36,333 nucleotides of DNA, from positions 1-36,333 of the forward strand of contig JAFAOB010000184.1 in assembly GCA_019238055.1 (NCBI GenBank), read 5' to 3'. This DNA is from Alphaproteobacteria bacterium. GTDB lineage: Bacteria > Pseudomonadota > Alphaproteobacteria > ATCC43930 > CGMCC-115725. Below the pieces are notes generated by a model. The model made no database searches and had not been told where the DNA came from. It saw nothing but the letters and a program-made list of their open reading frames with translations. Shown here in pieces: positions 9,758-16,881 of this stretch. The position numbers and the translations under genes are program-made. Each line of letters starts with the position of its first letter. Positions within the stretch are counted from its first letter, which is position 1.

Positions 9758-12700
9758 TCAGATCGTGAAGTATTTGGCCTGGGGATGGTGGACGACGATC
9801 GCCGAAGTCGACTGCTCGGGGTCGAGCTGGTCCTCCTCGGACAGGCCGACCCCGATCTCATCGGCGCGCAGCAATTCAAGCAATTGCCGCTGATCGGCGA
9901 GGTTGGGGCAGGCGGGATAGCCGAACGAATAGCGGCTGCCACGATAGCCTTGCGCCAGCATCGCCTCCGGGTCGCGCGCCTCCTCGGCGGCAAAGCCCAA
10001 CTCGCCGCGGATACGCCGGTGCAGATATTCAGCCAGGGCCTCGGCCATCTCGACCGACAGCCCGTGCAGATAAAGGTAATCCTGATAGCGGTCCTGGGCG
10101 AACCACTCGCGCGCGGTATCGGACGCGCGCCGGCCCATCGTCACGACCTGCAACCCGATGACATCGTGCTCGCCGGCATCGACGTCGCGGAAGAAATCGG
10201 CAATGCACAGCCCGCCCTCCCTGTCCTGCCGCGGGAATGAAAAGCGGGCGATCTCGCGCCGCCGGTCCGGGGCGAACAGGATCACATCGTTGCCTTGCGC
10301 CGCGCACGGCCAATAGCCATAGGCGGCCTGCGGCACCAGGATCTGCTCACGAATTGTGATTTCGAGCATCCGCGCCAAGACAGGACGCAGCTCGTCTTTG
10401 GCCCATTCGCGATACTCGTCCAATGACTTGCCATCCTTGCGATAGCCCCATTGGAACTGGTAGAGCATGCGCTCATTCAAGTATGGGACGACCGCTTTTG
10501 GCGACAAGCGAGTGATCGTTCGCGGGCCCCAGAACGGCGGCTGCGGCACCGGCACGGCGCGGGTCAACTCGGCGCGGCGCAGGCGGATCGCCTCGAGATC
10601 AACCGGGCGCAACGGCCGCGCATCGGCGGCGCGGCCGAGCTTGCGCGACGGCTTGACCGACCGGGCCTCGTTGCGGATGCGGATTTCAGCGAGATGAGCA
10701 TCGAATTCGCGATTGACGATTTTGTCCATCAAAGCGAGCCCGGCAAACGCATCGCGCGCATAGGCGACCCGCCCCGAGGCATAGGCCTTGACACAATCCT
10801 CCTCGACATAGCGCCGGGTCAGGGCCGCACCACCGAGCATGACCGGCAGATCGAGCCCTTGCCGGCTCATTTCCTCGAGGTTCTCGCGCATCACCACAGT
10901 TGATTTGACCAGCAGGCCCGACATGCCGACGGCATTGGCATGGTGCAGCGCTGCGGCCTCGAGGATGGCCCCGATCGGCTGCTTGATGCCGAGATTGATG
11001 ACCCGATACCCGTTGTTGGTCAGGATGATGTCGACAAGATTCTTGCCGATGTCGTGCACATCGCCGCGTACCGTCGCCAACACGACGGTCCCTTTTTCCT
11101 GGCCTTCAACCCGTTCCATATGCGGCTCAAGAAAGCGCACCGCCGTTTTCATCGTCTCGGCCGATTGCAGCACAAACGGCAGCTGCATCTTGCCGGCGCC
11201 GAACAATTCGCCGACGGTCTTCATGCCGGCGAGGAGGATGTCGTTGATGATGTCGAGCGGCTTCCAGCGCTGCATTGCCATATCGAGATCGGCTTCGAGA
11301 CCCTGCCGGTCGCCGTCAACGATACGCTGGGCGAGCCGCTCTTCGAGCGTTTCGGGGCGGGTCTTTTTTTCGACCGCCGCGGCGGTACGGTCTTGGAACA
11401 AGGCAATAAAGGCCTGCAGCGGGTCGTAGCCATTGCGACGGCGGTCGAAGATCAAATCTTCGGCGACTTTCGCCTCCTCCGGGGCAATCCGGTGCAGAGG
11501 GACGATCCGCGAGAAATGCACGATCGCGCCGGTCAGCCCGCGGCGCAACGCATGATCGAGAAAGACCGAGTTAAGGGTCTGCCGCGCCGACGGGTTAAGC
11601 CCGAACGAGATGTTGGAAAGCCCGAGAATGATCTGGCACTCGGGCATCGCCCGCGCGATCTGTTCGATCGCCTCCAGAGTATTGAGGCCCAACCGGCGGT
11701 CGTCCTCATTGCCGGTGCAGATCGTAAAAGTCAGTGGGTCGAACAGCAGATCCGACGGCGGCAGACCATATTTGCGGCAGGCGAAATCGTAGAGCCGGCG
11801 GGCGATCGCGACCTTGTGTTCAACCTCCTTTGCCATGCCGGTCTCGTCGATCGTCAACGCGATGACCGCCGCGCCAAAGCGGCGCGCGAGCTCCAGGCGC
11901 CTGGCAGCGGCATCCTCGCCATCTTCGAAATTGATCGAATTGATGATCGGCTTGCCGCCGTAGAGCTTTAGTGCGGCTTCGAGCACCGGGTATTCGGTCG
12001 AATCGATGACGAGCGGCGCATTGACCGCGCCACGCATCCGGCTGACCGCCTCGCTCATATCGGCGACTTCGTCACGGCCGACAAAAGCGGTACACAAATC
12101 GAGCGTATGCGAGCCTTCCTTGACCTGCTCGCGCGCCATCTCGACGCAACCGTCCCAGTCGCCCGCCTCCTGCAACTGGCGGAATTTGCGTGATCCGTTG
12201 GCGTTGCAGCGCTCGCCGATCGATAGCCAAGCGTTTTCCTGTCGCAGCGGCACCTGGCCATAGAGCGAGGCGAGGGCCGGGATCCACACCGGGCGGCGTT
12301 GGCGCGACGGCGGTCGTGACCGGTCGCGCCCGAGGCGGCGCAGCATCGCGTCGAGTGCGGCAATATGCGAGGCATCGGTGCCGCAACAGCCGCCGATCAT
12401 ATTGATGCCGTCCTCGACGACAAAGCGTTCGAGCCAATCTGCCAGTTCGGCGGCGCCGAGCGGGTATCGCGCCTCGCCGGCGACGAGCTCGGGAAGACCG
12501 GCATTGGGCTGCACCGAGATCAGACCGGGCCAGTTCTCGCCGAGCCATTTGACATGCTCGGCCATTTCACGCGGCCCGGTGGCGCAGTTGAGACCGATCA
12601 TCGGCACATCCAGCGCCTCGATGACTGTTGCGGCGGCGGCGATGTCGGCGCCGACGAGCAGACTGCCGGTGGTTTCGACCGTAACCTGAACCAAGATCGG

Positions 12701-13252
12701 CGTATCCTTGCTGGCATCCGCGCGCGCCCGTTTGGCGCCGTTGACCGCCGCCTTGATCTGCAGCGGATCCTGGCAGGTCTCGATGATGATTGCATCGACC
12801 TCGCCGGCGATCAGCCCGGCGCACTGGACCGTCAGAGCGTCCTCAAGCTCCTGGTAAGCGACATGGCCGAGCGAGGGTAATCGGGTTCCGGGACCGACCG
12901 ATCCCAGTACGAACCGCGTGCGACCATCATGCCTGAATTCGGCAATCGCCTCGCGAGCGATCTCGGCGGACAGTCGATTTAACGCAAAGGCTTTGTCGGC
13001 AAGGCCGAATTCGCCCAATGTGATCGGCGATCCGCCAAAGCTGTTGGTCTGGATCGCGTCACAGCCGGCCGCGAGATAGCCGCGGTGGATTTCGCGGATC
13101 AGATCGGGCCGACTTTCGCACACGATCTCGGTGCAATTCTCGTTCCCGAGAAAATCGCGCTCAATGTCAAGATTGCGGGCCTGAACCTGGGTTCCCATCG
13201 CGCCGTCGCAGAGCACGACGCAATCGGTGAGATAATCGAGAAAATGGGTCAT
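9758..13252 (-). CDS. metH: Cobalamin-dependent methionine synthase
   Basis: 1164 aa; Hcy-binding (CDGAMGTQ..., IGGCCGTD), pterin-binding (LSIGERCNANGSRKFR...), B12 (VRGDVHDIGKNLVDIIL), and activation domain (YLHGLSVEMAEALAEYLHRRIR..GSRYSFGYPACPNL). Confidence 0.98.
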   Translation of the reverse strand: MTHFLDYLTDCVVLCDGAMGTQVQARNLDIERDFLGNENCTEIVCESRPDLIREIHRGYLAAGCDAIQTNSFGGSPITLGEFGLADKAFALNRLSAEIAREAIAEFRHDGRTRFVLGSVGPGTRLPSLGHVAYQELEDALTVQCAGLIAGEVDAIIIETCQDPLQIKAAVNGAKRARADASKDTPILVQVTVETTGSLLVGADIAAAATVIEALDVPMIGLNCATGPREMAEHVKWLGENWPGLISVQPNAGLPELVAGEARYPLGAAELADWLERFVVEDGINMIGGCCGTDASHIAALDAMLRRLGRDRSRPPSRQRRPVWIPALASLYGQVPLRQENAWLSIGERCNANGSRKFRQLQEAGDWDGCVEMAREQVKEGSHTLDLCTAFVGRDEVADMSEAVSRMRGAVNAPLVIDSTEYPVLEAALKLYGGKPIINSINFEDGEDAAARRLELARRFGAAVIALTIDETGMAKEVEHKVAIARRLYDFACRKYGLPPSDLLFDPLTFTICTGNEDDRRLGLNTLEAIEQIARAMPECQIILGLSNISFGLNPSARQTLNSVFLDHALRRGLTGAIVHFSRIVPLHRIAPEEAKVAEDLIFDRRRNGYDPLQAFIALFQDRTAAAVEKKTRPETLEERLAQRIVDGDRQGLEADLDMAMQRWKPLDIINDILLAGMKTVGELFGAGKMQLPFVLQSAETMKTAVRFLEPHMERVEGQEKGTVVLATVRGDVHDIGKNLVDIILTNNGYRVINLGIKQPIGAILEAAALHHANAVGMSGLLVKSTVVMRENLEEMSRQGLDLPVMLGGAALTRRYVEEDCVKAYASGRVAYARDAFAGLALMDKIVNREFDAHLAEIRIRNEARSVKPSRKLGRAADARPLRPVDLEAIRLRRAELTRAVPVPQPPFWGPRTITRLSPKAVVPYLNERMLYQFQWGYRKDGKSLDEYREWAKDELRPVLARMLEITIREQILVPQAAYGYWPCAAQGNDVILFAPDRRREIARFSFPRQDREGGLCIADFFRDVDAGEHDVIGLQVVTMGRRASDTAREWFAQDRYQDYLYLHGLSVEMAEALAEYLHRRIRGELGFAAEEARDPEAMLAQGYRGSRYSFGYPACPNLADQRQLLELLRADEIGVGLSEEDQLDPEQSTSAIVVHHPQAKYFTI

Positions 13253-13289: not shown

Positions 13290-14228
13290 TCAGGCAGCCG
13301 CGGCGGCCGGCTTTTTCGCGCGCACGCCCAAAAGGTGGCAGATGGCGACGATCAGATCGGCCCGGTTGAGTGTATAAAAATGAAACTCGTGCACACCCTC
13401 GGCATGAAGTCGCCGGCATTGCTCAGCGGCAATTGATGCGGCAACGAGCCGGCGCGTGTCGGGATCGTCGTCCAATCCGGCGAAATGCGTTTCCATCCAG
13501 GCTGGGATCGAGGTGCCGCAACTGGCGCTGAATTTCTTCACTTGAGCATAGTTCGTGACCGGCAGGATACCCGGCACAATCGGCACGGTAACGCCGCGAG
13601 CAGCGGCTCGGTCACGAAAGCGGAGATAGAGCTCGACATCAAAAAAATATTGGGTGATCGCCCGGCTTGCCCCGCCATCGAGCTTTCGCTTCAAATTGTC
13701 GAGATCGTGCTCAGTGCTGGCAGCTTCGGGATGGGTCTCGGGATAGGCGGCAACACTGATTTCAAAATCGGCGATCTTTTTGAGACCTGCAACCAAATCG
13801 GCGGCGTAGGCATAGCCATCGGGATGGGGTGTATAAGGTCGCACCTCAGCCGGTGGATCACCGCGCAGCGCGACGATGTGGCGGATTCCGGCCTCCCAGT
13901 AGTCCTGGGCGACGGCGTCGATCTCAGTCCGACTGGCGGCAACACACGTCAGATGCGCAGCTGGTTCGAGATCGGTTTCGCGGCGGATGCGGCGGACCGT
14001 TGCATGTGTGCGCTCGCGAGTGGACCCGCCAGCGCCATAAGTGACCGAGACGAAACGTGGGGCCAGCGGCTCGAGGCGCTTGACGACCTCCCACAGCCGC
14101 GCCTCCATTTCGGCCGTCTTGGGCGGGAAAAATTCAAAAGAGACGCGGGGTGGCCCCGCATCGAAATCGATTACCGGATCGGCGGCAAGGCGACCGCGCG
14201 ATTGGAATGAAGTTGAAATTTCGCTCAT
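13290..14228 (-). CDS. metF: 5,10-methylenetetrahydrofolate reductase
   Basis: From MSEISTSFQSRG...; VSFEFFPPKTAEMEARLWEVVKRLEPLAPRFVSVTYGAGGSTRERT...ALRGDPP; start overlaps the upstream stop (TGATG). Confidence 0.96.
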   Translation of the reverse strand: MSEISTSFQSRGRLAADPVIDFDAGPPRVSFEFFPPKTAEMEARLWEVVKRLEPLAPRFVSVTYGAGGSTRERTHATVRRIRRETDLEPAAHLTCVAASRTEIDAVAQDYWEAGIRHIVALRGDPPAEVRPYTPHPDGYAYAADLVAGLKKIADFEISVAAYPETHPEAASTEHDLDNLKRKLDGGASRAITQYFFDVELYLRFRDRAAARGVTVPIVPGILPVTNYAQVKKFSASCGTSIPAWMETHFAGLDDDPDTRRLVAASIAAEQCRRLHAEGVHEFHFYTLNRADLIVAICHLLGVRAKKPAAAAA

Positions 14229-15235
14229 CAGCGCAGTTGCCTTTCGAGAAGAGGGAGCGAAACATTCTCCGTCAGACCGCCAAGCGACTGTCCAATCCCA
14301 AGCGCCGATCCGCGGGCGGCGGTCCAGATCACGACGGTAAGCGGATCGCCGGGTAATGGATGTGGCAGGGCCGGATCGAGGCCGGCGGCGCGGCACCATT
14401 CGGCGATCTCACGGTCGGCAAAGCCAAGCCGGCGGTGGGCATGCTCTTCGCGCAAAAATTCGAGACTGTGAGGGGCGAAGTCGACCAGCACCAGCATACC
14501 GCGCGGCCGCAACACCCGGGCCGCCTCGACGATCACTGCCCCGGGGCGATCCGCGTAATGCAGAACCTGATGAATGACGACCGCGTCGAACGAACCGTCG
14601 GGCAAAGGCAATTGGTACATGTCGCCGAGCTGCACACGCGCATTTGCAAGGCCTGCTCGTTCGAGATTGACCCGCGCCAGAGCCAACATCTCACGCGATT
14701 GGTCGATCCCAAGCGCCTGGCCCACCTGCCCTGCCAGGATCTCGAGCATGCGGCCGGTTCCGGTGCCGATGTCGAGCAAGTCGTTCGGGCCGCCTTTGGT
14801 GATGATGTCGACAAGCGCCGTTTCGACCTCGCGCTCGTCGATGTAGAGTGAGCGAATGCGGTGCCATTGCGCGGCATTGGCCCGGAAATAATCGGCGGCG
14901 AGTTCGGCGCGCTGCCGTTTAATCGCCGCCAGCCGCTTGAGGTCGAGAGCCAAGGCCGGGTCGGCATCATCGCACGCCGCGATGAGCTGGCGCACAAGCC
15001 CGGCAACTGGCCCTGATCCGCTTAGCCGGTAAAACGCCCAGCTGCCCTCGCGCGAGCGGTCGAGCACGCCGGCATCGCAGAGCAGCTTCAGATGCCGCGA
15101 CACGCGCGGCTGGCTTTGACCGAGGATCTGCGTCAGCTCGCTGACCGTCAGCTCACCGCCTCGCGCGCACAATGCGACCAACCGCAGTCTCGTCGGCTCG
15201 GCGATCGCGCGCAGTGCTGCAAGCAGGTGCTCCAT
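14228..15235 (-). CDS. sahR: ArsR-family HTH + SAM-methyltransferase-fold regulator, SahR-like
   Basis: N-term LRAIAEPTRLRLVALCARGGELTVSELTQILGQSQPRVSRHLKLL (ArsR wHTH) fused to DLLDIGTGTGRMLEILAGQVGQALGIDQSREML (methyltransferase fold); first gene of the metF-metH operon. Confidence 0.85.
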   Translation of the reverse strand: MEHLLAALRAIAEPTRLRLVALCARGGELTVSELTQILGQSQPRVSRHLKLLCDAGVLDRSREGSWAFYRLSGSGPVAGLVRQLIAACDDADPALALDLKRLAAIKRQRAELAADYFRANAAQWHRIRSLYIDEREVETALVDIITKGGPNDLLDIGTGTGRMLEILAGQVGQALGIDQSREMLALARVNLERAGLANARVQLGDMYQLPLPDGSFDAVVIHQVLHYADRPGAVIVEAARVLRPRGMLVLVDFAPHSLEFLREEHAHRRLGFADREIAEWCRAAGLDPALPHPLPGDPLTVVIWTAARGSALGIGQSLGGLTENVSLPLLERQLR

Positions 15236-15264: not shown

Positions 15265-15293
15265 AACATATGCGGATATCTTTATATGCGCAA
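15265..15293 (-). promoter_or_regulatory. Predicted sahR-metF-metH promoter with overlapping palindromic operator
   Basis: On minus strand TTGCGC(15293-15288)-17 nt-TATGTT(15270-15265). Imperfect 22-bp palindrome catatgcggatatctttatatg at 15267-15288 fills the spacer; sahR start at 15235. Confidence 0.7.
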
Positions 15294-15394: not shown

Positions 15395-16276
15395 ATGCGA
15401 GATCGATCGACTAGACTTCCGCCGCTCCGTCTGGTATTGGCGCAATCCCTGGTCATCATCCCTTTGATTTTGTCGGGATGCGCAACACATCCGCAGTCTC
15501 AGCAGGCGGCGGTGGCGGAGGAAGATTTCCACGATCCAATAGAAGACGTTAATCGTAAAATCTTCGATTTCAATCAAGTCGTCGACCGCCATGTCTTGGT
15601 TCCGGCAGCAAAAGCTTACCGCGCAGGCCTGTCCGAACCGATACGCGATTCGATCCACGACTTCTTGAATAATCTGTCAGAGCCGCTGATTTTCGCCAAT
15701 GATACATTGCAGGGTAGGTTGGGCTATGCCAAAGATTCTGTGATCCGGTTCGTACTGAACTCGACCCTGGGTATGGCTGGTCTCGTCGACCTCGCCGGGC
15801 GCTGGGGCATCCCCTATCGAGAGACCGATCTGGGGATAACCTTCGGGGTTTGGGGAATTCCCGAAGGACCCTATTTGGTTATCCCGGTGCTTGGCCCATC
15901 CGACCCGCGTGATATCGCCGGCACGGGCATCCAGGCTTTCGGAGACCCCTGGAACCGGCTGGTATCCGGCGAACCATGGACCCTCTATTGGATCCCGTAC
16001 GCGCGCAGTGCGATTGCCGGCATCGATCAGCGAGCGCGCTATCTCGACACGCTGGCCGATATCGAACGGACATCGCTCGATTATTACGCGACCATTCGGT
16101 CTCTCTATCGTCAGCGCCGTGCGGCGCTGGTCCGCGGCGAGCGTCGGAACCTGCCGCCGCCTGCCAGCTTCACCGAGAACAGCGGCGCGCCGGCCTCGGC
16201 GGTATCGGTTAGCGGAACCTCTCCGGCTGGAGTTGTTTCCGCATTACGAGATAACTCCGAGGTTTCCGCGCAATGA
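15395..16276 (+). CDS. mlaA: MlaA/VacJ family lipoprotein
   Basis: Lipobox LILSGC; DPIEDVNRKIFDFNQVVDRHVLVPAAKAYRAGLSEPIRDSIHDFLNNLSEPLIFANDTLQG. Confidence 0.95.
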   Translation: MRDRSTRLPPLRLVLAQSLVIIPLILSGCATHPQSQQAAVAEEDFHDPIEDVNRKIFDFNQVVDRHVLVPAAKAYRAGLSEPIRDSIHDFLNNLSEPLIFANDTLQGRLGYAKDSVIRFVLNSTLGMAGLVDLAGRWGIPYRETDLGITFGVWGIPEGPYLVIPVLGPSDPRDIAGTGIQAFGDPWNRLVSGEPWTLYWIPYARSAIAGIDQRARYLDTLADIERTSLDYYATIRSLYRQRRAALVRGERRNLPPPASFTENSGAPASAVSVSGTSPAGVVSALRDNSEVSAQ

Positions 16277-16881
16277 AGCGACGATTGGTGTTGATCGGCG
16301 GGTGCACTCTGGCCCTCGCCAGGGTACTGCCGGCCCCGTCTGCAGCCGCGGCGGATCCTGCTGCCGTGATCACAAGCCTCGGCAACGAGGCACTTAAAGT
16401 ACTTGGCAAGAATGTCGATCCCAACCTGCGCGTCACTCGCTTTCGCGAATTGTTTCGCAAGGATTTTGATGTTCCTGGCATAGCGCGCTTTGTCCTCGGA
16501 CGCTATTGGCGGCTGGCAACACCAGCGCAGCAGCAAGAATACGTCACTCTCTTCACGGACTATATTGCGCTCGTCTATGCTGACCGCTTGGCGGAATACG
16601 CGGGCGCAACTCTACGCGTCACCGGCAGCCGCCCCGCGCCTGACGGAGAATTGGTATCGACTGAAATCATCCGGACAACGGGTGAGGCCCCTGCCCGCAT
16701 CGATTGGCTGCTGATGCCGCAAAACGGGACTTACAAAATCACCGACGTAATCGTCGACGGCGTGAGTATGTCGGTGACGCAGCGCTCCGAATTCGCCTCC
16801 GTTATCCAGCGCCATGGGGGCCAGGTACAGGGCCTGATCACCGCCTTGCGGCAAAAAATTGCGAGCTCCGGCCCGCATTAA
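16273..16881 (+). CDS. mlaC: MlaC/Ttg2D family phospholipid-binding protein (copy 1)
   Basis: FRELFRKDFDVPGIARFVLGRYWRLATPAQQQEYVTLFTDYIALVYADRLAEYAGATLRVTGSR; overlaps the mlaA stop by 4 nt (ATGA). Confidence 0.92.
   Translation: MKRRLVLIGGCTLALARVLPAPSAAAADPAAVITSLGNEALKVLGKNVDPNLRVTRFRELFRKDFDVPGIARFVLGRYWRLATPAQQQEYVTLFTDYIALVYADRLAEYAGATLRVTGSRPAPDGELVSTEIIRTTGEAPARIDWLLMPQNGTYKITDVIVDGVSMSVTQRSEFASVIQRHGGQVQGLITALRQKIASSGPH

Follow-up and report, generated by a model that had tools for sequence, protein, structure and literature searches.

A predicted SahR operator inside the promoter of an sahR-metF-metH operon from an uncultured alphaproteobacterial lineage

The imperfect palindrome at positions 15267-15288 of the window, which is the whole analysed stretch of 36,333 nucleotides, can, judging from sequence, be taken with near certainty as the binding site of the SahR regulator encoded by the adjoining gene. 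It is highly likely that SahR binds this operator within the -35/-10 spacer, represses sahR-metF-metH, and is released from the DNA by S-adenosylhomocysteine (SAH). The circuit is a further instance of the known SahR circuit and is ordinary in kind. The features of the region are as follows.

15288..15293, minus strand: predicted -35 element TTGCGC (TTG register conserved at sahR and ahcY)
15267..15288, no strand assigned: imperfect 22-bp palindrome, predicted SahR operator (exact pattern match and PWM)
15265..15270, minus strand: predicted -10 element TATGTT (sequence; register kept in relatives)
14228..15235, minus strand: sahR, 335 aa (Pfam HTH_5 and Methyltransf_11; orthologues; invariant DxGTGxG motif)
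13290..14230, minus strand: metF, 5,10-methylenetetrahydrofolate reductase (NF006950 and TIGR00676 above cut-off)
9758..13252, minus strand: metH, B12-dependent methionine synthase (TIGR02082 above cut-off, 1233 bits)

The sequence CATATGCGGATATCTTTATATG at 15267-15288 matches the pattern CATATnnnGATATCnnnATATG with 0 mismatches, and is read on the sahR strand as CATATAAAGATATCCGCATATG. The original prediction described it as a 22-bp imperfect palindrome, and 8 of its 11 position pairs are indeed complementary. The window contains 92 22-mers with exactly 8/11 complementary pairs and ten more that exceed 8, so palindromy itself is not rare and the significance of the site rests on its specific sequence. 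With up to three mismatches allowed, the pattern has a single match in the window, and dinucleotide shuffles give 0.02. The exact pattern occurs twice in the 4.72 Mb genome, against 0.004 occurrences expected by chance, in a scan made by pattern only, which weak true sites could escape. These are the only zero-mismatch sites, one before sahR-metF-metH and the other directly upstream of ahcY.

Absence of the motif from orthologous sahR-metF loci had been named as a result that would speak against the prediction, and the motif is present there. The palindrome lies upstream of sahR in 30/30 fetched loci (sahR loci from relatives and from this genome), at 13-77 nt before the protein match. Among named genome records, 79 SahR orthologues have sufficient sequence upstream, and in 78 of them the gene is preceded by the same palindrome of about 20 bp; the single miss (L183) has a decayed copy of 12.5 bits. 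Some genomes belong to both sets, and the larger one takes in isolates of Terasakiella, Novispirillum, Kordiimonas, Pseudokordiimonas, Haematospirillum, Sphingosinicella, and Marinimicrococcus. The operator consensus among orthologous loci is ATATAAAGATATCTTTATAT; the 20-bp core (15268-15287 in the window) is conserved among loci, and the flanking bases vary. A PWM built from 29 orthologous sites, with the window's own site left out, gives 25.7 bits for the window site, 37.3 for the ahcY site, and 43.4 for the consensus. The second-best score in the window is 4.9 bits, and 5.1 Mb of simulated sequence has a maximum of 22.7 bits, with 0 matches as good as the window site.

The site is asymmetric, as claimed at the outset. 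Its -35-side half is full consensus, and its -10-side half is degenerate, with CGC in place of TTT, so that the three lost consensus bases all fall in one half. Across the compared loci, the asymmetry is specific to the window site and some close relatives. A general decay bias of the -10-side half was considered and rejected, with 34 vs 33 mismatches over 30 loci.

The promoter was proposed to consist of TTGCGC and TATGTT with a spacer filled by the palindrome, and this arrangement is present. On the minus strand the two hexamers are separated by a 17-nt spacer that is nearly all palindrome, and the predicted -10 element overlaps the operator end. The match to the sigma-70 consensus is weak, at 3/6 for TTGCGC and 4/6 for TATGTT, and a generic promoter scan found no promoter. 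Conservation supports the putative -35/-10 assignment. In 14/14 closest sahR loci, a TTG starts six bases ahead of the 20-bp core, with a TAT hexamer at 17-nt spacing, and the ahcY promoters of five genomes (this one and four relatives) have TTG in the same register against the palindrome, again 17 nt from a TAT. In more distant relatives, the positions of a TTG-like element cluster at 6-9 bases ahead of the core. The ATG of sahR lies at 15235, and 31 nt separate the operator region from sahR. Riboswitch control was rejected for the window, where an Rfam search gave no match to a riboswitch or other known RNA regulator.

The gene behind this promoter was read as an ArsR/methyltransferase-fold gene coupled through TGATG to metF and followed by metH, and profile HMMs agree on all three. 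The sahR stop codon overlaps the metF ATG, metH begins 37 nt after metF, and metF adjoins sahR in 30/30 loci. SahR comprises an ArsR-type (winged) HTH at about residues 6-73 (Pfam HTH_5 match at 14-58) and a class I methyltransferase-fold domain at about 150-260 (Pfam Methyltransf_11 match at 154-250). Full-length orthologues are found in most relatives. The SAM/SAH pocket residues D155, G157, T158, G159, G161, D178, and D205 are invariant in 14 orthologues. The structure search found separate matches to HTH or methyltransferase domains and no solved structure of a full-length SahR homologue.

A scan of the rest of the genome for the motif at ahcY and metK had also been proposed, and it was productive at ahcY. 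The other exact match lies at C362:904-923, some 35 nt ahead of the probable start codon (ATG) of ahcY. Beside it lies a 5' fragment of ahcY (TIGR00936 match), and the 3' part is found on C385. TTGACT directly abuts the palindrome here, which is the same geometry as in the sahR promoter. AhcY, methylenetetrahydrofolate reductase, and methionine synthase carry SAH to methionine, and thus the two sites cover one pathway. The ahcY site is present in 14/24 SahR-bearing genomes and in 0/5 without SahR (Fisher p = 0.025, with the relatedness of the genomes ignored); in the other 10/24 no site was found within 350 nt.

For metK the outcome was different. The gene has no match in this draft genome, which is rated 91% complete. 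Genomes of the same genus have metK, some in pieces, which points to a gap in the assembly as the likely cause here; assembly gaps most likely explain both the missing metK and the split ahcY. Only 1/24 of the metK upstream regions from SahR-bearing genomes (L089) has a site, with the checks of metK and ahcY covering 350 nt, so that sites farther up an operon would be missed. Another genome (G040) has a one-mismatch site just upstream of metK by genome coordinates. Since ahcY lacks the site in 10/24 genomes and metK lacks it in nearly all, the content of the regulon varies. Further targets were sought in this genome at fetched loci around 2-3-mismatch matches, and these hold nothing above 6.5 bits.

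The original reading of a SahR-type operator with autorepression is thus supported by ortholog conservation, the ahcY site, and the promoter geometry. These, with the site itself and the domain architecture, are what is seen here; that the protein binds DNA, acts as a repressor, and has SAH as its ligand is predicted by analogy with studied orthologues. A SahR dimer on the palindrome would occupy the -35/-10 spacer and cover part of the -10 element, and RNA polymerase would be kept off the sahR-metF-metH promoter. With these elements covered, repression would most simply come from shutting out RNA polymerase. Accumulating SAH would bind the methyltransferase-like domain, and SahR would leave the DNA. 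Its release would raise AhcY, which converts SAH to homocysteine, via the second operator, and would raise MetF and MetH, which carry homocysteine to methionine. SahR itself would also rise, which amounts to negative feedback. The degenerate -10-side half (25.7 vs 37.3 bits) predicts a weaker operator than that of ahcY, and sahR-metF-metH may therefore be less tightly held than ahcY.

SahR, its autoregulation, and its core regulon were already published in 2014 (Leyn et al., PMC4239095). It is described there as an ArsR-family regulator that responds to SAH and has a 20-bp palindromic motif, present in 7/9 Rhodospirillales and 4/4 Caulobacterales genomes, and its alphaproteobacterial core regulon comprises sahR, ahcY, metH, metF, and metK. 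The ArsR-family regulator, a palindrome of about 20 bp, autoregulation, and the sahR, ahcY, metH, and metF targets are common to that regulon and the present one, the motifs being compared by the palindrome length of 20 bp given in the text of PMC4239095. In contrast, metK belongs to the published core, whereas here the gene was not found and 1/24 SahR-bearing relatives has a site, and the operator here is asymmetric and weakened. In the accessible part of PMC8877191, SahR of Ensifer aridi LMR001 is likewise autoregulated by a promoter operator, with sites at sahR, ahcY, and metH, and deletion of sahR raises sahR expression. That part also gives sites at metK and bhmT and describes no sahR-metF-metH operon such as the one here. 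SamR of Xanthomonadales is a SahR-like regulator that adjoins metH genes, as here (PMC4239095). Its palindrome has 24 bp and shares only ATC-10-GAT with that of SahR, and its regulon covers wider biosynthesis without ahcY; the core here has 20 bp, and ahcY is a target. The present analysis extends the complete SahR control circuit to an uncultured lineage of Alphaproteobacteria; the operator lies inside the -35/-10 spacer at both targets, and the target set is small.

It is unlikely that a SahR-like regulator binds here and senses another ligand, such as SAM instead of SAH. One fold binds both molecules, and the pocket motif that is invariant in the 14 orthologues would serve either. SAM sensing has been suggested for SamR, a distant SahR relative, and the published alphaproteobacterial predictions come from comparative genomics, the SAH response having been shown in Desulfovibrio (PMC4239095). 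However, SamR regulons contain no SAM-cycle genes except metK and use the 24-bp palindrome (PMC4239095), whereas in this genome the second site stands before ahcY, whose product removes SAH, and no metK target was found. It is quite unlikely that the effector domain of SahR has kept methyltransferase activity and that the repressor thus both makes and senses SAH. If it did, enzyme turnover as well as ligand binding would act on the operator of sahR-metF-metH.

The genus Brevundimonas is one of the Caulobacterales. From Brevundimonas sp. M20, the protein ArsR^M was described in 2023 as an arsenite methyltransferase; it is encoded at the head of a metRFHH operon, whose promoter it shifts (PMC10190100). 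The ArsR-methyltransferase fusion at the head of a met operon is shared with the arrangement here, and the EMSA shift of its own promoter parallels the autoregulation predicted here. The motif CTTTATATAAAG reported for it has its centre on the outer arm (PMC10190100), in contrast to the GATATC centre of the present operator. The residues H223, Q224, H227, Y228, F254, and H268 given as contacts, among which Gln and Tyr contacts were proposed (PMC10190100), match conserved residues here with an offset of one: H222, Q223, H226, Y227, F253, and H267 are invariant or nearly so in the 14 orthologues. It is very unlikely, in spite of such likeness, that arsenite methylation in the manner of ArsR^M is the main role of the protein and that the operon joins arsenic metabolism to that of methionine. 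The As(III) contacts derive from docking, the activity assay is a kit that counts SAH release, and SahR is never mentioned in PMC10190100. The alignment of 14 SahR orthologues has no invariant cysteine and so none of the conserved arsenic-binding cysteines of the ArsM type, and the conserved partners are metF, metH, and ahcY rather than ars genes. Given SahR in all four Caulobacterales genomes, the matching residues, and the met operon, the name ArsR^M very probably stands for a SahR orthologue, as judged from the named residues and the operon. The SahR and ArsR^M literatures may thus describe one protein family. Were the effector domain active, the reported action of ArsR^M on arsenite would show one side of an SAH-making repressor. 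That the palindrome belongs to another regulator altogether, or mainly serves the divergent mlaA (15395), is hardly credible. Relatives of mlaA are found in 60/80 orthologous loci, and a look-alike palindrome, TTGATATCAA, with the same GATATC core adjoins a MarR-like gene in this genome (L005). However, AAAGATATCTTT tracks sahR and ahcY and not mlaA, and it also occurs at loci with no mlaA relative found in the neighbourhood (e.g., L021, L029, L031).

The genes mlaA and mlaC (phospholipid transport) occupy 15395-16881 and run divergently from sahR. MlaC is weakly like the hopanoid-associated HpnM.

Palindromes of the form TTGATATCAA or TTGACATCAA, with a related core, occur at G000:C364:12761-12780 (L005:1501-1520) and at L058:1501-1520, just upstream of genes that resemble the MarR type by sequence. 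They are probably operators of a separate regulator, which SahR motif scans could mistake for SahR sites. One of the 2-3-mismatch candidates in this genome is such a MarR look-alike and was rejected as a further SahR target. Similar patterns are also found in G002, G009, G021, and G052.
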